Assembly (NCBI GenBank): GCA_028278675.1
Contig: JAQAJJ010000005.1
Coordinates: 62,001 to 126,000 of the forward strand
Reading direction: 5' to 3'
DNA length: 64,000 bases
Origin: Candidatus Azophilus lithoversatilis
GTDB lineage: Bacteria; Pseudomonadota; Gammaproteobacteria; Pseudomonadales; Azotimanducaceae
Both the position numbers and the translations under genes were made by a program. This document shows positions 1,674 to 52,500 of the stretch, piece after piece. Below the pieces are notes generated by a model. The model did not search any database. It saw nothing but the letters and a program-made list of their open reading frames with translations, and was not told the origin of the DNA. Positions within the stretch are counted from its first letter, which is position 1; every line of letters begins with the position of its first letter.

Positions 1674-2948
1674 CTAAACGCGGCCCAGCGATACGGGCAA
1701 ATGCCTGCGGCCCCAAAGAAAAAAGGGCGCGATCCGCTCACCCGCGTCGACTAGCCGCAAGTCCGGGCAGTGCCTAACCAGTGCCCGCAAGGCCGTGCTG
1801 GCTTCGAGCCGGGCCAACTGGGCGCCCAGGCAGAAATGCACCCCCAAGCCGAAGGCCAAGTGGCGCTGCGCCGGCCGGTCCAAGGAGAAAGTGTTCGGTG
1901 CCTCCCATACGCTTGGATCACGATTGGCGGCGGCGTAGTGCAGCATCACCTTGGCATTCTCCGGGATGCGGACGCCGTGCAGCTCCACAGCCCGAGTGGT
2001 GGACCGGTACAGGCCCAGAACCGGCGGGTCGAAGCGCAGGCTTTCCTCCAGCGCCCGGTGCACTAGATCTTCCGATCGCGGGACAAGGTTGTCGTAGGAG
2101 TCAACTTTTGCGCTCGGCAAGCGCCCACTCGTTGATCTGAGGCCTTGCCTGGTTAGGCCTGACTCCGCCACCAACCGCCGCCAAAGGTCCGGGCGTTCGA
2201 GCAGCCGCCAGACAACGTTGGTTATGAGGGAGGTCGTCGTCTCGTTGCCACCCACCAAAAGTTGATTGACGACGCTCAGGATTTCATCGTCCGCCAACCT
2301 CCTGCCGTCCTGCTCAGCCTGAACCAGGCCATCGATCAGGTCGCCCCGGCCCGGCGCCGCCCGGCGTTCGCGGATCTGAGCGAGGATGTAGTTGGCCAAT
2401 TCGGCCAGCTCCGACGCGTAAGCCGACGGGTCGGCTGCGCCCATCGCAGCCACCGAGGCATCCGACCAACGCTTGAAAAGATGCAGGTCACTGGACGGCA
2501 CCCCCAGCATTTCGGCGATGATGACGACCGGCAGCGGAAAGGCGAAGGCATCGTGCAGATCCCATTCCCCCACCGCGCACTCCTCGAGCAATTCCTCGGC
2601 CAACGCCTCAACCCGGCTGTGCATGGCCCCGATGGCACGGGGCGAGAAAGCCTGCTGCACCAAGCTGCGAAAAAAGGCGTGCTGGGGCGGATTGGAGAGC
2701 ATGCCGGCTGGCGGCGTGAAGCGCGGCCCCTGCCCAAATTCACTTGAGTAGGTGTCGATGTCGCGCAAGGCTCCTTGCACATCGGCATAGCGGGAAAGCG
2801 TGTAGAACGGCGGGTCGAAATCGCCAAAGTAGTGCACGGGACGTTCGGTCAGCAAGTGCCCGTAGGCCAAGCTTGGCCGGTCGAAAACCGGTGGCCTGAA
2901 CGGATTGTAGACGGTAACCGCCATCGTTTTCACATCAAGGGCACTCAT
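1674..2948 (-). CDS. Cytochrome P450 with an in-frame repeat-encoded insertion
   Basis: A soluble bacterial P450 monooxygenase of 424 residues from ATG 2948 (MSALDVKT; a second ATG lies eight codons later). It has the I-helix oxygen-activation motif GGNETT (near residue 234), the K-helix ExxR (EESLR, near 301) and the haem-thiolate loop FGLGVHFCLGAQ near the C-terminus, so all catalytic landmarks remain. Between LVAE and VHRALEESLR, where other P450s have a short J-K linker, about 33 extra residues appear (roughly 264-296). They correspond exactly to a dispersed palindromic element at 2061-2158 that occurs elsewhere in the window. The frame stays open through it. Substrate unknown; no redox partner is encoded nearby. 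Whether the enzyme is active with the insertion is uncertain. Confidence 0.88.
   Translation of the reverse strand: MSALDVKTMAVTVYNPFRPPVFDRPSLAYGHLLTERPVHYFGDFDPPFYTLSRYADVQGALRDIDTYSSEFGQGPRFTPPAGMLSNPPQHAFFRSLVQQAFSPRAIGAMHSRVEALAEELLEECAVGEWDLHDAFAFPLPVVIIAEMLGVPSSDLHLFKRWSDASVAAMGAADPSAYASELAELANYILAQIRERRAAPGRGDLIDGLVQAEQDGRRLADDEILSVVNQLLVGGNETTTSLITNVVWRLLERPDLWRRLVAESGLTRQGLRSTSGRLPSAKVDSYDNLVPRSEDLVHRALEESLRFDPPVLGLYRSTTRAVELHGVRIPENAKVMLHYAAANRDPSVWEAPNTFSLDRPAQRHLAFGLGVHFCLGAQLARLEASTALRALVRHCPDLRLVDAGERIAPFFLWGRRHLPVSLGRV
2061..2158 (-). repeat. Palindromic element copy A, inserted in frame in a P450
   Basis: A 98-bp copy of the dispersed element found also at 43264-43381 and 52380-52500. 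Read on the minus strand it begins GCCTAAC and ends CTAGTG. It encodes a peptide matching AKVDSYxNxxPRSxxLV, the same frame as in copy B. It lacks about 20 bp of the central GC-rich hairpin present in B. Conserved blocks shared with B are GCCTAAC, a GAGTCAACTTTTGCGC core and GATCGCGGG. Confidence 0.85.
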
Positions 2949-3048
2949 GCGGACTATAGCCCATCGATTCCACCGTCGCCTGATGGCCCAAAGCTGTAAA
3001 GCCCCTTTCCGCAACTCTATAGCATCCCCGTTTTTCGAAACGGAGGGA

Positions 3049-3096
3049 ACTGCTCTGAAAAAAGACTGTTCTGAAAAAAGACTGTTCTGAAAAAAG
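3049..3096 (+). repeat. Three tandem copies of a 16-bp repeat in a divergent promoter region
   Basis: Units at 3049-3064, 3065-3080 and 3081-3096 read ACTGYTCTGAAAAAAG, the last two identical. They lie in the gap between the divergently transcribed P450 and RidA-like genes. They could be regulator-binding iterons or slippage-generated sequence. The short A-rich tract in each unit is unusual in this GC-rich background. Confidence 0.9.
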
Positions 3097-3205
3097 ACAG
3101 GGAGACGTTTCCGAATTGCGTTGACGCACCGCGAAGTCCGTTGCCAACAGACCGCCAATGAACGTAGTCTATGCGACCCACAAGCGCCTGAATGGAGCGA
3201 CCCCG

Positions 3206-3682
3206 ATGGGGCGGATCGAAACACGGCTCGACGAGCTCGGCATCGTGCTGCCCAAGCCGATGGATTTGGGACCCCTGCCCTTCGAATTGGTGCGCATCCA
3301 CGGCGAGCGCGCCATTCTTTCCGGCCATCTGCCCCTGGATGCCGAAGGCGCCCTCGCCGAGCCGCTCGGCAAGGTGGGCGCCGAAGTCACCGCCGAGCAG
3401 GCCTATCAATCAGCGCGACTCGTGGGTTGCGCATTGCTGGCAAGCCTTCAGCAGGCGCTCGGCGAACTTGACCGGGTGGCCGGCTGGGTGCGGCTGTTCG
3501 GCATGGTCAACGTGGCACCCGGGTTCAACCGCCTGCCAGCGGTCATCAACGGCTGCTCGGAACTGATTCTTGAGATCTTCGGCCCTGAAGTGGGTGCTCA
3601 CGCCCGCTCGGCGGTTGGCTTGGCCGAATTGCCCTTTGGCGCCCCGGTGGAGTTGGAAGGCGAGGTGCTCATCCGCCCGTGA
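3206..3682 (+). CDS. RidA/YjgF-family protein (YER057c-like subgroup)
   Basis: A 158-residue member of the Rid superfamily, in the subgroup whose N-terminus reads like IETRLDELGIVLPKP, and with the strand pattern FELVRIHGERAILSGHLP typical of that subgroup. RidA proteins hydrolyse reactive enamine/imine intermediates; this subgroup is poorly characterised and often sits beside metabolic enzymes. I prefer ATG 3206 (MGRIETRL), which matches the family N-terminus, over an in-frame ATG at 3158. Its stop overlaps the GTG start of the dihydroorotase gene (GTGA, 3679-3682), so the two are probably translationally coupled. Confidence 0.85.
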   Translation: MGRIETRLDELGIVLPKPMDLGPLPFELVRIHGERAILSGHLPLDAEGALAEPLGKVGAEVTAEQAYQSARLVGCALLASLQQALGELDRVAGWVRLFGMVNVAPGFNRLPAVINGCSELILEIFGPEVGAHARSAVGLAELPFGAPVELEGEVLIRP

Positions 3683-24255: not shown

Positions 24256-24273
24256 AGCCTATGGCGCACTTCC

Positions 24274-24512
24274 ATGGAACAAATGGAGACAGCCCCGCGG
24301 CTGGCGGGTTGTTCCTTCGATGTCAGCGGCGTGCCGCTCTGGGGCAAGCTAAGGGCTTCCATGTGGCGGGTTGTTCCTTCGATGTCAGCGGCGTGCCGTT
24401 CTGGGGCAAGCTAAGGGCTTCCATGGAACAAATGGAGACAGCCCAGCGGCCGGCCGGTCGTTCCTTCGGCCTCATCGGCGTGCCGTTCTGGGGCAAGCTG
24501 AAGGCTCAGTGG
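24274..24512 (+). repeat. Three-copy direct repeat encoding a reiterated peptide
   Basis: Units at 24274-24360, 24361-24422 (lacking the first part) and 24423-24512. Each full unit begins ATGGAACAAATGGAGACAGC and each contains a block ending GGGGCAAGCT. Translated in the right frame they read MEQMETAxRxAGxSF and GVPFWGKLKA. Units 2 and 3 are in one frame, unit 1 in another. An open frame 24261-24605 covers them but overlaps the better-supported gene at 24541. I cannot say whether the peptide is made. Confidence 0.85.
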
Positions 24513-40433: not shown

Positions 40434-41042
40434 TCACCGCTCCGCCATCACATCCTCCAATGGGGCTGCAAGCGCATCCATCCGCTCGATTCGTTCCACC
40501 GTAAGCTCGCGCACGCAGACCAAGCCCGCTGCCATGGTCACTGGATTGCCGCAGTAGATGCCGGAATGCGCCACCTTCGGTGCGTGGGGATCAAAGACTC
40601 GCATGTGCTCCCGCTTGCCGCCCACGGCACCGACCGGAAAACCGCCACCGATCACCTTGCCCAACATGGTGAGATCCGGCTCGATGCCATCGAGCACCCG
40701 CGCACCGTCTTCAGCCAAGCGGAAAGTGATGACTTCATCGAGCACGAACAAGGCTCCCGCTGCTTGGCTTGCCGCCTGGACCCGGCGCGGGAATTCAGGC
40801 GTCGCCGTGCTCGGACAGAATCCGCTCGAAGCTCTCCGCGTCGTTGAAGCCACCCACGAAGGTCGAGCCTTCGCACTGCGGCATCAACCCCGGAAAGGCG
40901 CCGGACTCGAACTCCATCAAAATGCCGTGATAGCCGTGCCGGGCCGTCAGCACCTTGTTGCGCCCAGTGATGGCCCTGGCAATGGTCAGGGCCAATATCC
41001 CGGCCTGCGAGCCGGAATTGGTGAAGCGAACGCTCTCCACCG
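40434..41042 (-). pseudogene. Broken class III aminotransferase (glutamate-1-semialdehyde aminomutase-like)
   Basis: Two overlapping frames give pieces of one HemL-like PLP enzyme. The upstream piece (41040-40803) reads ESVRFTNSGSQAGILALTIA and RHGYHGILMEFESGAFPG. The downstream piece, in another frame, reads FPRRVQAASQAAGALFVLDE, LTMLGKVIGGGFPVGAVGGK with the PLP lysine, and HSGIYCGNPVTMAAGL. Near 40800 a frame change and loss of some 15-20 residues join them. The first hundred or so residues and the C-terminal 80-90 are missing. The upstream truncation coincides with a partial palindromic element (41043-41085). It is not functional. Confidence 0.85.
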
Positions 41043-41085
41043 ACGCAATTGTGGCAACCTTGACCCGCGATCAAGGAAACTAGTG
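41043..41085 (+). repeat. Partial palindromic element copy D at a pseudogene end
   Basis: The plus strand ends CGATCAAGGAAACTAGTG, almost the same as the end of copy B, and is preceded by GCAACCTTGACC, comparable with the next block of copies A and B. The rest of the element is replaced by pseudogene sequence, so only about 40 bp remain. It lies 32 bases upstream of a Rieske oxygenase gene, in the orientation that places its distal end toward that gene. Confidence 0.75.
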
Positions 41086-41116
41086 TAATTGGCGGCAATC
41101 GAGGGGGGATTCGCCG

Positions 41117-42472
41117 ATGACCCATGCAGAGTGCGTGAAGCATCCGTTAGCGATGGATGGCAAGGACCCGTCGCTCCTTCGAGGCGATCCGATCTCCCAG
41201 GAGCGCTACTACTGCCCGGAGTTCATGGCGCGGGAATGGGAGGGCCTGTGGACCAAGATCTGGCACATCGCCGGCCGCGAAAAGCAGCTTGAGCAAGCCG
41301 GCGACTTCATCGTGCATGACTTCATGCGCGAATCCGTCATCATCGCAAAGCAGCGTGACGGCTCGCTCAAGGGGTTCTACAACGCCTGCGGCCACCGGGC
41401 GCAACGCTTGGCCTGGCAGGATGGCTGCCAGGCCTGCTTCACCTGTCCCTACCACGGCTGGCAGTGGGGGCTTAACGGCGTGTTGGAGGACTGCCCGGAC
41501 CGGGATGATTTCCCCCAAGGCGACCCGGTGGGCAAGCTGAAGCTCACCGAAGTCCGCGTGGATACTTGGGCAGGACTCATCTGGTACACCATGGATGACG
41601 CAGCGCCGAACTTGATGAGGTACCTGGAGCCCACGCCGGAGCTGTACAAAAGTCATCAGTTCGAGAAGACCATTCGCGTCAATTGGCTGCGCGTGGCGCT
41701 CGACACGAACTGGAAATTCTGGTCGGACAATTTCAACGAGTCCTACCACACGCGAATGGTGCATCCCCAAGTGCCGCCGATCATCGATCAGGATCACTTC
41801 ACGTCCCGCTACGAAATGTTCCCCATGGGCCACAACCGCATCGTGCAAATGGGCCGGCCTTCCCTAAGGGACCGCTTGCCGGACGGTGCGCCGCACCCGT
41901 TTGATGACATGCTGCGGGCTTGGGACATCGATCCCGGCAAGTATCCCGACTACGAAACCAAGGCGATGCAGGGCTGGCGGGACTTGAAGGCCGCCAAGCG
42001 AGCGCTATGGCGGGAGAAGGGCCATCTGCACTACGAACACCTCAGCGATGAGGACTTGACCGAAAGCCCGTTCCAGGTGCTGTTCCCCAACGTCGCCATC
42101 GCCCCATCGGCGGATTCCTTCCTGGTCTGGCGTTGGGAGCCCCATCCGACGGACCCCCAAAAGTGCTTTTTCGATCAATGGACGATGGCCTATCCCATTG
42201 AAGGCATGGAGAAGTTCGTCAATCGTACGGCGGTGAACCCCATCGAGCTCACCGAGGCGGAGCTGGATTTCCGCGAGTACGGCAACGGCGACAGCGTTTT
42301 GGACTATTCGGACCAAGTGGTGTTCCAGGACTGGCAGCTCACTCCTGGCCAGACCACTGGCTGGCGATCCAGAGGCTATCAGGAACCCTACATGGCGGCC
42401 CAGGAAACCCGGGTCAGGCGCTTCCACGAAGTGCTGAACGATTACATGGCCGGCAATCCGCCTGGCCGCTGA
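41117..42472 (+). CDS. Rieske non-haem iron oxygenase, alpha subunit
   Basis: A 451-residue ring-hydroxylating-type oxygenase from ATG 41117. The Rieske site is CGHRAQ...CFTCPYHGW, with 16 residues between the two pairs (about 92-116). The catalytic iron region is DNFNESYHTRMVHP near residue 208. The large C-terminal domain with LHYEHLSDEDLTESPFQVLFPNVAIAPSADSFLVWRWEP is like those acting on aromatic or bulky alicyclic substrates. It lies downstream of element D and converges on a TIM-barrel isomerase gene. The electron-transfer partner is absent. Confidence 0.92.
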   Translation: MTHAECVKHPLAMDGKDPSLLRGDPISQERYYCPEFMAREWEGLWTKIWHIAGREKQLEQAGDFIVHDFMRESVIIAKQRDGSLKGFYNACGHRAQRLAWQDGCQACFTCPYHGWQWGLNGVLEDCPDRDDFPQGDPVGKLKLTEVRVDTWAGLIWYTMDDAAPNLMRYLEPTPELYKSHQFEKTIRVNWLRVALDTNWKFWSDNFNESYHTRMVHPQVPPIIDQDHFTSRYEMFPMGHNRIVQMGRPSLRDRLPDGAPHPFDDMLRAWDIDPGKYPDYETKAMQGWRDLKAAKRALWREKGHLHYEHLSDEDLTESPFQVLFPNVAIAPSADSFLVWRWEPHPTDPQKCFFDQWTMAYPIEGMEKFVNRTAVNPIELTEAELDFREYGNGDSVLDYSDQVVFQDWQLTPGQTTGWRSRGYQEPYMAAQETRVRRFHEVLNDYMAGNPPGR

Positions 42473-42483
42473 GCGAGCGGAAC

Positions 42484-43266
42484 CTACTGGAAAGCGGAAC
42501 GCTGACAGCGCTGGCGAATCTGTTTGGCCCGCTCCACCGGATCGGGGAAGGCATCCCGCAATGCCTTGGACCGAATCTCCAGACTGACATCGAGGCCTGA
42601 GCGGCAGACCGCCTCGATGTCCGCCCTTCTTGCCTCGCCCTCCCCCAATGAACAGCGTCCGTCCACCGCGGCTTCGAGGTAATCGACACCCGTCATGGCG
42701 GCCGACGACTGAAGGAAGTCACAGGCCTGCACATAGGGAAATTCCTCCGAATCCAGCGACGGGAGGGCATCGCCGGCGCGATTCAGGTGCATGAGATCGA
42801 TGAGGATGCCAGCGGCGGGATGATCGACGGCGGCGATGAACGCCCGGGCGGCTGACAGCGACTTGATTGGGGTGAACTCGCCAAACTCCAGGTTGATCCG
42901 AATGCCGTCGCCCGCCAGTTCGCAGAGTTCCCGGAACTGGGAAAGACTGGCGTCATAGTCGTGATGGCGGGAGACGACCAAAACGTTTCTGGCGCCGAGG
43001 CTCAATGCCGCATCAAGAATCCGCTTGTGCGCATCCGTCGCCCGGTCGCCATTGCCAAGCCACAGCGCCTCGACGTCGATCAGCTTAATGCCCGTATCAG
43101 CCAGTGCGGTGCGGGTTCTGGCCAATGCATCGCCATCCCAGCTCGTTGCCGGATCAACCCACATGCCGCAGGTTTCGAATCCGGCCTTGTGCGCAATGCG
43201 AGGGATCTCCCAAGGCGGCACATCCGGAACCCAGCCCGCCGCGAGAGCCCAGTAGGGTTCAGCCAC
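42484..43266 (-). CDS. Sugar-phosphate isomerase/epimerase-like TIM-barrel protein
   Basis: A 260-residue xylose-isomerase-like TIM barrel. Features: WEIPRIAHKAGFETCGMWVD, LIDVEALWLG, LGARNVLVVSRHHD, INLEFGEFTP and ILIDLMHLNRAGDA with plausible metal-binding Glu, Asp and His residues. The best start is GTG 43266 (VAEPYWAL), which is the last codon of palindromic element B; AAGGA sits five bases before it, also within the element. A longer frame from 43383 would translate the whole element as a 39-residue N-terminal extension and cannot be ruled out. Substrate unknown. Confidence 0.8.
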   Translation of the reverse strand: MAEPYWALAAGWVPDVPPWEIPRIAHKAGFETCGMWVDPATSWDGDALARTRTALADTGIKLIDVEALWLGNGDRATDAHKRILDAALSLGARNVLVVSRHHDYDASLSQFRELCELAGDGIRINLEFGEFTPIKSLSAARAFIAAVDHPAAGILIDLMHLNRAGDALPSLDSEEFPYVQACDFLQSSAAMTGVDYLEAAVDGRCSLGEGEARRADIEAVCRSGLDVSLEIRSKALRDAFPDPVERAKQIRQRCQRSAFQ

Positions 43267-43381
43267 TAGATTCCTTGATCGCGGGATGACGTTGCCATAC
43301 GAGTCAACTTTTGCGCCCGGCGACCGTGCGCCGCCAAGGCGGCGCGCCTTCTCGTCGGTCTGAGGCGTAGCCTCGTTAGGC
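43264..43381 (-). repeat. Palindromic element copy B, filling an intergenic gap
   Basis: A 118-bp copy. Read on the minus strand it starts GCCTAACGAGGC, has an internal hairpin GAGGC-TAC-GCCTC and a strong stem CGCCGCC-TT-GGCGGCG, and ends AAGGAATCTAGTG. Its first bases contain the TAA stop of the molybdenum hydroxylase gene and its last three are the GTG start of the isomerase gene. It could be translated as TDEKARRLGGARSPGAKVDS followed by YGNVIPRSRNLV. Confidence 0.9.
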
Positions 43382-45577
43382 AAGCTTCAGGGGCAACGAG
43401 CGCAAGCGTTGGCCGGTGGCGGCAAACACCGCATTGGCGACCGCCGGCGCAATCGGCGGCAACCCAGGTTCACCGACCCCGGTGGGCTCTTCCGCGCTGT
43501 CGATGATCACCACGTCCACATCCGGCGCCTCGTTCATGCGCAGGATGGGGTAGTCGTGGAAGTTGCTTTGCGTGATGGCGCCGTTCTCCAAGTCAAGCTC
43601 GCCGTGCAGGGCCGCGGTCAGCCCGTACATGACCGAGCCTTCCATTTGCGCCCGCACGATGTCGGGGTTCACGGCCACGCCGCAGTCCACCACGCAAAGC
43701 ACCTGGTGGACCCGGATTGCGCCGTTCTCCACCGAAACCTCAGCCACCTCGGCCACGTCGGTGCTGAACGAGCTGTGCGCGGCGAACCCCAGATGGCGGT
43801 CCGGACGCGTTGGCCACTGGCGCAGGCGCTCGCCCGCAACCTTGATGACGTTGTGCAGCCGCGGCTTGTCCCAGGTGTTGCGCAACCGGAAATCGACCGC
43901 ATCCAAGCCCGCCTTGGCGGCGAGTTCGTCCATCATCGTTTCCTTGGCGAACGCCGTGTAGGAGTGCCCAACCGACCGCCAGAACGTGAGCGGCAGCCCG
44001 TGGTTGATGGTCACGTGCCGCACTTCGCGGTTCGCGGTGTCATAGTCCTCGTACAGCCCCTCGATGCTGGAATGGTCCACCACCCAACCGTCAAACGCAT
44101 CGTCCGCGAGGCCCACCATCCAGTCAATGGCGCCCTCGCCCACCGCACCCGGCAACAACGCCGGCATCATGTTGCGCAGCGTGTCGGGCGTGATGTTGCC
44201 ACCGACGCGCTTGGCCTGCCAGGCGGTCAGGCGGCCCGCATCGTCAACGCCCGCCTTGATCCGCATCAAGGAGGCGGGGCGGTAGATGCCGCTTTGAATG
44301 TCGTCCTCGCGGCTCCACAGCACCTTGATCGGCTTGTTGGTAGCCACCGCCAACTGGGTGGCTTCAATCACGTGGGTCAGCGTCGCCCGTCGGCCAAAGC
44401 CGCCGCCGAGATAGGCGTTGTGGGCGCGGACCTTCTCCTTGTCGAGGCCGGCGTAGCGGGCCACCAACCCCTGCGCCGCGGCGATGCCTTGGCTGCCCGT
44501 CCAGACATCCGCCTCGCCACCTTCGATGCGCACAACCGCGTTCATTGGCTCCATGGGCGCATGGGCCAGATAGGGTGCCCAGTAGTCGTTCTCCACGACC
44601 TGGCCGGCCTGCGCAAAGCCGGCATCCAAGTCGCCCCGCTCGCCGGTCACATCACCCTCCTGGTCGAGTCCGGCCCGGTAGTCCGCCCGCAGTCGTTCGC
44701 TGTCAAGACTGGCGAGCGGCGGCAGGTTCCAGTCCACCTCCAGCGCCTGCGCCCCCTTCTTGGCCGCCCAATAGCGATCCGCGACGACCGCTACCCCGCT
44801 ACCGATTTCGATGACGTCAGTGACGCCCGGGACCAAGCGCGCCTTGCCGCCGCGATAGGACTTCAGTGTGCCTCCGGCAACCGGGCAGCGCCGCACCACC
44901 CCGTGATGGAGGCCCGGAACATCGATGTCGATGCCGAACTCGGCAGCGCCCGTGGACTTGTCGAGCGCATCAATCCGCGCAAACTCCTTGCCGATGAACT
45001 TGAATTCGCTCGCTGGTTTCAAAGGTGCCTCGGCGGGCGCTTCGAGCGCTGCTGCTGTGGCCACGAATTGGCCGTAGGGGAGCCGTTCGCCATCGACAAC
45101 CACATGGCCGCCATCGGTGGACAAAGCCGATGCGGGCCGTCGCAATTGACCGGCGGCGGCCTCGAGAAGCACGGCGCGCACGTTGGCGCCCACTTGGCGC
45201 AGTTGCCGGTAGTGGGCCTTGATCGACGTGCTGCCACCCGTGCCCTGAACGCCAAATTCCGGGTTGGCGTAGTCGGCGTGCACACCTGCCCAGAGCACTT
45301 CAATCTCCCGCGGGGGCACATCGAGTTCCTCGGCAACCAAGGTGGTCAGCCCGGTGCTGACGCCCTGCCCCATCTCATCGCGCGGGCAGTAGAAGCGGAC
45401 GCGGTTTTCCGGGGTGATCTGCAAAAAGGCGTTGGGCACGAAGTCGCCTTCCATACGGGCGACGGGCGGTGCGCTTGAGCCGCAGCCGGTGAGCGTGAAG
45501 CCGACCACCAGTCCGCCGCCCGCGACACCGGAAGTCTTGAGAAAGCGGCGCCTTGAAACGTTCAGCAACCGATTCAT
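43376..45577 (-). CDS. iorB: Isoquinoline 1-oxidoreductase-like molybdenum hydroxylase, large subunit
   Basis: A 733-residue molybdopterin-binding subunit of the xanthine dehydrogenase family, IorB type. A twin-arginine signal [25 protein letters not shown] indicates export. Domain features include [20 protein letters not shown] (cofactor contact), [49 protein letters not shown] and the C-terminal [15 protein letters not shown] with the expected catalytic glutamate. It hydroxylates N-heterocycles or aldehydes with water oxygen. It overlaps the small iron-sulphur subunit gene by four bases. Its TAA stop is provided by element B. Confidence 0.92.
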
Positions 45578-52382: not shown

Positions 52383-52500
52383 CTGGTTCTCTTGATCGGG
52401 GGATAAGGCCGTCGCATGAGTCAACTTATTGCACCCGACTGGGTGCGCCACCCCAAGGCGGCGCGTCCGCTCGTCGGCTTGGAGCGTTGCCTCGCAGGCC
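52380..52500 (-). repeat. Palindromic element copy C, at the CYP153 start
   Basis: A 121-bp copy that aligns with copy B throughout. On the minus strand it includes GAGGCAACGCTCC, CCGACGAGCGGACGCGCCGC, GTTGACTC and CCCGATCAAGAGAACCAGATG. Its last three bases form the ATG of the P450, in the place where copy B has GTG. An open frame through it reads EATLQADERTRRLG, like EATPQTDEKARRLG in copy B. Confidence 0.85.

Follow-up and report, generated by a model that had tools for sequence, protein, structure and literature searches.

Insertion sequences of the HUH-type IS200/IS605 and IS91 groups lack terminal inverted repeats, have a hairpin end, insert at a fixed short target and give rise to small non-autonomous derivatives. 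The palindromic elements of Rickettsia are small repeats that can be read in frame inside protein genes. Proteins of a different fold class, Rep_trans, are described for plasmids, phages, archaeal viruses and conjugative elements in the accessible parts of three reports, which contain no description of transposition by this class (PMC13107129, PMC4797284, PMC5714925).

Here, we analysed a 64,000-nucleotide stretch of DNA of Candidatus Azophilus lithoversatilis (hereafter, the window), in which a fragment of a short repeat lies between an aminotransferase pseudogene and an intact Rieske gene. The element behind this fragment appears to represent an undescribed class of transposon with putative transposition activity.

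A truncated element end between a pseudogene and the Rieske gene

The fragment and its neighbours are arranged as follows.

40465 to 41049, minus strand: pseudogene of a class-III (HemL-like) aminotransferase, recognised from Aminotran_3 matches and comparison with homologues
41050 to 41079, minus strand: truncated left end (LE) of an element, its first 30 nt
41080 to 41083, no strand: CTAG target tetranucleotide on the LE side
41060 to 41089, plus strand: possible hybrid promoter, with TTGACC (41060-41065) in the element, an 18-bp spacer and TGTAAT (41084-41089)
41117 to 42472, plus strand: intact gene for a Rieske/ring-hydroxylating dioxygenase alpha subunit, with orthologues (88-94%) in the congeners G007, G002, G008 and G005

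Read on the minus strand from 41083 to 41050, the fragment starts with CTAG and continues for 30 nt into a ~90-bp repeat. Among the fetched loci of the genome, all 34 nt, CTAG included, are identical in four other copies (L014, L016, L021 and L028), and 33 of the 34 are identical in three more (L004, L019 and L090). In the first four copies, of which L014 and L016 have no right-end hairpin, the repeat runs on past these 34 nt; the window piece instead passes into the aminotransferase pseudogene. It keeps 30 of the 90 nt that are the commonest element length, and the break within the element falls at no recognised end. The original prediction had placed element-like sequence at 41043-41085 and had allowed that its similarity to a full copy farther along the window (copy B, below) might be non-significant. 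The element sequence proved real but narrower, 41043-41049 being pseudogene-side sequence outside the element, and 41052-41085 matched copy B with an E of 2.7e-5 in BLAST; the pair formed by the window piece and copy B is also the first-listed of 55 inverted repeats in the window (34 nt, 85% complementary). The piece at 41050-41083 is almost certainly a truncated element with the ends of a ~1.8-kb coding-element family; by itself, such a fragment is an ordinary, common kind of scar.

In Pfam, the pseudogene gave two Aminotran_3 fragments, 40434-40853 and 40795-41040, the second of which (E 0.0008) does not reach the Pfam cut-off. Matches at E<=1e-30 were found in 13 of 206 genomes of the family, the window's own included, and in none of the eight other congeners, among which the best match was 47% (G003). 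Homologues that are 75-76% identical over the fragment occur in another genus of the family, g58 (G220, G225, G218 and G214), and intact frames of 436 aa (L285, in G220) and 427 aa (L287, in G218) are available for comparison. In blastn with L285, the blocks kept in the window are 40465-40799 and 40817-41046. The pseudogene has lost 111-125 N-terminal residues (a range that depends on the start codon chosen in the intact homologues), 59 bp internally and about 97-105 C-terminal residues. DNA homology to the intact genes ends at 41046 for two of three loci and at 41036 for the third; thus, the edge of the N-terminal loss lies within a few nt of the element, as had been predicted. Moreover, the intact homologues, which are from another genus, run on past the break for the whole of the N-terminal stretch and so do not end there.

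Insertion or recombination at the element had also been proposed as the cause of the deletion, and this held in part: the break is a derived feature and lies at the element, but the 59-bp internal deletion and the C-terminal loss are separate, and the element therefore cannot be the whole cause of the gene loss. From the three separate lesions, we conclude that the aminotransferase gene decayed in several steps and that the element explains one edge only.

On the other side of the fragment, all four congeners with a close orthologue of the Rieske gene (G002, G007, G008 and G005) have TTTGACA / TCTAAT before the gene, and this arrangement is kept in G008, G007 and G005 although their sequence farther upstream differs. 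G002 is collinear with the window to 40379 and resumes at 41082, with ~34 bp in between that include TTTGACA. The window alone has element sequence where the congeners have TTTGACA, and the element end abuts the -10, with the TGTAAT of the window corresponding to the conserved TCTAAT. Because the four congeners share the upstream arrangement and the window differs, the window represents the derived state here. TTTGACA and TCTAAT resemble the -35 and -10 of a promoter, and judging from the sequence either arrangement may function as one. The idea that the distal end of the element points at the Rieske gene did not survive: the end facing this gene is the CTAG (insertion-target) end, and the hairpin end is missing. 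By the patterns used, no element ends were detected at the aminotransferase loci L285-L287 or at the Rieske loci of the relatives (L061-L064), leaving capture of the aminotransferase by the element unsupported.

Alternatively, an ordinary insertion could have been followed by host recombination or decay that made the deletion, with the transposase taking no part in the rearrangement. Inverted partial copy D and copy B lie on either side of a 2.2-kb Rieske segment in a genome with many similar copies, and both the break point inside the element and the two further lesions of the pseudogene are consistent with such a course, to which we give a chance somewhat short of even. Against it, L285-L287 show no element ends by the patterns used, so that simple element-element recombination does not explain the aminotransferase side of the break.

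The repeat family, its ends and its empty sites

The full copies in the window are the following.

2067 to 2156, plus strand: full copy A, 90 bp, in the frame of a cytochrome P450 gene; missing (net 90 bp in each case) from G002, G008 and G004
43270 to 43379, plus strand: full copy B, 110 bp, located where two genes meet and containing an internal hairpin; the site is empty in G007 and G002 (net 110 bp)
43351 to 43379, plus strand: right end (RE) of copy B, a GAGGC-GTA-GCCTC hairpin followed by GTTAG, identified by RE pattern matches
52387 to 52497, plus strand: full copy C, 111 bp, where a second P450 gene probably starts; absent in G008

The repeat is mobile: each of the three full copies is missing from at least one congener. 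At the empty site of copy B in G007 and G002, CACTAG joins GCGAGC directly; the site has a single CTAG, and no duplication is needed, though a 3-nt TAG duplication would look identical. Copy C has a clean empty site in G008 only, G002, G007 and G004 being different at that place, and at the site of copy A the empty-site correspondence is less exact in G007.

With copy B as query, 45 BLAST matches at E<=10 were obtained in the window's genome (G000), with some copies matched in two pieces, and the RE pattern with <=2 mismatches gave 71 matches compared with 0 for the reversed control. We examined 44 distinct copies, 41 in fetched loci of this genome and three in the window. Their left edge is CTAG in 23 of 44 cases; a right end was recognised in 33, of which 25 terminate in TTAG and 20 measure 90 bp, and longer copies have extra internal hairpins. 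The two ends read AAGTTGACTC...TCAAGGA..CTAG and, on the opposite strand, CTAACGAGGC...GCCTCAGACC. LE and RE are unrelated in sequence and, therefore, the repeat has no terminal inverted repeats. A classical MITE is ruled out by this absence and by the empty site of copy B, which is explained without target duplication. LE points at the start of a gene in 12 of 44 copies and RE in 2 of 33 (Fisher 0.019), a weak preference. As background, a gene start is faced by 14 of 106 directions at CTAG sites and by 341 of 3000 random positions.

In the RE hairpin, 229 of 230 pairs are Watson-Crick pairs compared with 64-108 in slid controls, in rows chosen by likeness to a hairpin-bearing consensus, which favours pairing. 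The stem occurs as GAGGC/GCCTC, GGGGC/GCCCC, GAGAC/GTCTC and GGGGT/ACCCC, with compensating changes on both sides at three of the five positions, and this conservation points to a functional hairpin. None of the six single strands folded (copy B and both ends of L186) surpassed its shuffles, with z from -1.0 to 1.7. RE was present in 24 of the 206 family genomes and in 6 of 37 genera, with 0 control matches among the matches listed, and many RE matches sit at contig ends. In named genomes, from which records near the window's genome may be excluded, the exact 26-nt core gave no match.

Individual copies differ in their surroundings. Copy A is read through in frame in ORF 1674-3224 (minus strand, Pfam p450), to which it adds ~30 residues without a stop, and is possibly a protein-borne insertion resembling the palindromic elements of Rickettsia. 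At 43264-43383, copy B has the stop of a molybdopterin-binding dehydrogenase gene on one side and the start of a xylose-isomerase-like gene on the other and alters both edges, and the frame of the second P450 gene (51141-52382, minus strand) stays open through copy C. At L090 (G000:C58:20500-21600), two elements are in tandem, with one YTRG common to the RE of the first and the LE of the second. Small elements of about 121-150 bp with the same ends and other cores are present in G021 (L131 and L132) and G002 (L183 and L184). In Chloroflexi/Anaerolineae, L202, L210 and L238 have a common left end, TTAAGCTTACTA, and L200, L202 and L238 a GAGAC hairpin; these four may form a subfamily. Elsewhere in the window, three direct repeats of ~89 nt each lie at 24269-24506, and a search of the window with Rfam returned only a tRNA.

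Coding relatives and their ~540-residue protein

Among 20 stretches around RE matches, three elements that carry the LE and RE of the repeat were found, with lengths of 1818, 1819 and 1826 bp, in G222, G208 and the congener G007; the remainder were small elements, contig ends or stretches with no left end. Coding elements and small non-coding elements, including those of G021 and G002, thus have both ends in common. Each of the three ~1.8-kb elements has a frame of 544-556 codons that runs from the right end to the left end, together with overlapping frames of similar length. The ~540-aa frame is free of stops in 29 of 29 aligned relatives, which were selected as stop-free in this frame, and the other five frames are so in 0-4 of 29. 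Differences from the first row fall on codon positions 1/2/3 as 4206/3466/6676, as expected for a coding frame. The gene was not found in G000, and among nine congeners only G007 has one; as no autonomous copy was found in the window's genome, its helper must have disappeared or be absent from the assembly. For the coding element of G007, only one flank is conserved in the empty-site comparison, and the small element alone showed insertion polymorphism.

In named genomes, 95 stretches matched, of which 83 encode a relative of the ~540-aa protein and 80 were kept; their titles include Gammaproteobacteria, Paraburkholderia, Caballeronia, Acidobacteria, Actinomycetes, Chloroflexi, Planctomycetes, Myxococcales and others. 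Alignments of homologous coding copies end sharply within different flanks. Of 55 readable regions upstream of the gene, 46 contain RE (<=6/24 mismatches), compared with 0 of 617 far stretches. Downstream, the strict pattern AACTTGACTC + CTAR was detected in 32 of 64 regions and in 0 of 617 far stretches, and a loose LE pattern in 50 of 64 compared with 8 of 64 when reversed and 14 of 617 far stretches. No relatives were found in viral contigs or phages. At the matches in 24 plasmid records, the annotation is 'hypothetical protein' in 13, no gene in 7, absent altogether in 3 and an ArsR regulator in 1.

The 29 aligned members (alignment A1) have a mean column identity of 66%. The protein had no match at E<=0.001 in Pfam, NCBIfam or PHROGs (the last searched with two proteins only); with E up to 1, single members had matches at chance level, of which the best was PapD-like (0.003) and several were helix-turn-helix domains. 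PF02486 and PF25227 (DUF7845) were absent at E<=1 when three proteins and the 29 of A1 were searched with hmmscan. Similarly, the search of PDB sequences returned nothing significant, and a profile search with A1 gave chance-level matches only.

A full-length AlphaFold model (pLDDT 80.9, pTM 0.73) predicts a two-repeat beta domain followed by a C-terminal winged helix. In this model, the beta domain aligns to TATA-binding proteins (TBPs; 1mp9, Z 8.8, 179 residues, rmsd 4.8); Foldseek against the PDB found nothing at E<=0.001, and no Rep_trans entry was among the 50 matches listed on re-alignment. Against viral models, the top match was A0A2N9QVX7 (E 1.8e-5), a protein that, according to the accessible part of PMC13107129, helped its authors to recognise Rep-Arvir as Rep_trans-like. 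With a model of the N-terminal domain (pLDDT 83.8, pTM 0.83), the first Foldseek match in the PDB was the Rep_trans initiator 4cij, at a weak E of 0.064 (TM 0.26/0.34). On re-alignment, TBPs reached Z 8.7 (178 aligned, rmsd 4.2), the Rep_trans structures 4cij, 4cwe and 4cwc Z 7.2 (198, 5.6), 6.8 (183, 5.4) and 6.5 (182, 5.4), and unrelated phosphoglucomutases up to Z 7.0 over fewer residues. The fold matches agree from row to row and extend over the whole domain, but values of 6.5-8.7 for a predicted model are marginal and within the range that chance arrangements can reach.

The Rep_trans site, as given in the accessible parts of PMC4797284 and PMC5714925, has an Asp on the first strand, R-x-D, and Y-x-K and R-x-E on neighbouring strands. 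In the ~540-aa protein, D23, Q250-A-E252, K324-Q-Y326-H-K328 and R334-T-E336 follow in the Rep_trans order on corresponding strands, a correspondence drawn by order and secondary structure. Y-x-K of motif III (Y326-H-K328, strand 321-328) and R-x-E of motif IV (R334-T-E336, strand 332-339) are present; the 'xxE' of YxKxxE and the L position of W/LxRxE are not matched, and motif I is QxE (Q250-A-E252) and not the RxD of Rep_trans. The motif N' aspartate, D23 on the first strand, is kept in 29 of 29 members of A1. Y326 is kept in 75 of 77 aligned segments, with Asp in L197 and in the stop-bearing L207, and K328, R334 and E336 are kept in all 77. A homologue of 25% identity on a Paraburkholderia plasmid (L288:2453-3967), annotated as an ArsR family regulator, retains D23, E252, K324, Y326, K328, R334 and E336, and its sequence suggests that the ~540-aa protein belongs to a wider superfamily.

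These residues bear on an alternative that casts the ~540-aa protein as a TBP-like DNA-binding protein or a replication-type passenger, with an unrelated enzyme moving the element. TBPs score at least as high as the Rep_trans structures, transposase activity is only predicted, and no copy of the gene was found in G000. By contrast, of several overlapping frames it is the ~540-aa one that stays open and conserved across phyla between conserved ends, and nuclease-type residues are kept even in the 25%-identical homologue; TBPs are not known to have such a residue set. We regard this alternative as unlikely. The ~540-aa protein is probably the transposase of the repeat family and, by analogy, is fairly likely to use Rep_trans-like tyrosine chemistry.

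Proposed course of events and comparison with known systems

The order of events that we infer would start with insertion of a non-autonomous element into the promoter-like sequence before the Rieske gene, at a site resembling CTAG. Afterwards or simultaneously, the right two thirds of the element would have been lost in a deletion that started 30 nt into the element, reached the aminotransferase, fused the element to the decayed gene and replaced the native -35. The small elements would be mobilised in trans by the ~1.8-kb insertion sequence with identical ends, the putative transposase of which would combine an N-terminal TBP-like (Rep_trans-like) tyrosine nuclease domain with the C-terminal winged helix. 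If Rep_trans and hairpin-ended HUH transposons are a guide, the winged helix would bind one end (LE, AACTTGACTC...TCAAGGA, or RE), the RE hairpin would be extruded, and Tyr326 would nick at the YTAG boundary with a metal held by Asp23, Glu252 and Glu336. A nick would also be made at the left CTAG edge, with the 5' end held on Tyr326, and the strand would be joined 3' of the target CTAG without inverted repeats or clear target duplication. Altogether, a left end truncated by deletion, in an element trans-mobilised by a ~1.8-kb insertion sequence with a Rep_trans-like transposase, is the best explanation and a likely one.

The junction at 41049/41050 might instead be an artefact of metagenome assembly, two loci having been joined through the 34 nt of repeat that they share. 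The genome consists of 104 contigs and the common stretch is a repeat; however, the junction lies inside a contig of 136,560 bases, the left side keeps synteny with G002 to 40379, and 34 nt are short for a false join with the long k-mers usual in assembly, all of which makes an artefact very improbable. Finally, we give hardly any credence to the repeat being a regulatory or structural element (REP- or RPE-like) and not a transposon, which the orientation of LE toward gene starts and the in-frame copy inside a P450 gene would suit, since the empty sites and the ends in common with ~1.8-kb coding elements contradict a regulatory origin and different cores lie between the same ends in G021 and G002; co-option of single copies is possible.

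The element family, as reconstructed here from a truncated left end and its relatives, differs from each of the systems closest to it. IS200/IS605, IS91 and their REP-like derivatives share with it the absence of terminal inverted repeats, the hairpin end, the fixed short target, the small derivatives and insertion without clear duplication; however, the predicted fold of the ~540-aa protein is not the HUH fold. A Y1 HUH transposase (IS200/IS605) was looked for in G000 as a helper and not found: Y1_Tnp (PF01797) had 0 matches there, compared with matches in 5 of 14 control genomes, and none in the ~540-aa proteins. Like copy A, the Rickettsia palindromic elements lie in frame in protein genes; here, by contrast, a coding relative with the same ends was identified.

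With Rep_trans or pT181-type initiators and MOBT relaxases (PF02486), the ~540-aa protein would have in common the TBP-like catalytic fold, as predicted here. Further likenesses are the acidic residue on the first strand, the acidic residue on the first strand of the second half, (K/R)-x-Y-x-K followed by R-x-E, and a hairpin at the DNA site. By contrast, it has no Pfam match, QxE in place of RxD at motif I and a C-terminal winged helix, and it lies in a transposon-like element and not at the origin of a plasmid, phage or ICE. Rep-Arvir (RepSNJ2, DUF7845/PF25227), in the accessible part of PMC13107129, resembles it in a TBP-like N-terminal domain plus wHTH and has the same top viral structure match, A0A2N9QVX7; these proteins, however, are replicon initiators of archaeal viruses and plasmids, whereas the ~540-aa protein is bacterial, lies between transposon ends and has no sequence match to them.

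In total, the tested features exclude Y1-type IS200/IS605 elements, classical MITEs and membership of Rep_trans by sequence, and a literature search, with subscription papers and ISfinder outside its scope, found no recognisable description of such an insertion sequence. Our proposal is that the elements form a new insertion-sequence family, the transposase of which is a Rep_trans-like tyrosine enzyme. On balance, we lean towards a family that spans many bacterial phyla, has a Rep_trans-like (TBP-fold) tyrosine nuclease and gives rise to ~90-bp derivatives that fill some genomes, replace promoters and enter reading frames, as in the window. If so, its enzyme would join the Y1 and Y2 HUH enzymes as a third kind of single-strand-type transposase, and the element would offer a small, defined system for testing the link between initiators and transposases; replication initiators and transposases, already connected through the HUH superfamily, would then be linked for a second time.
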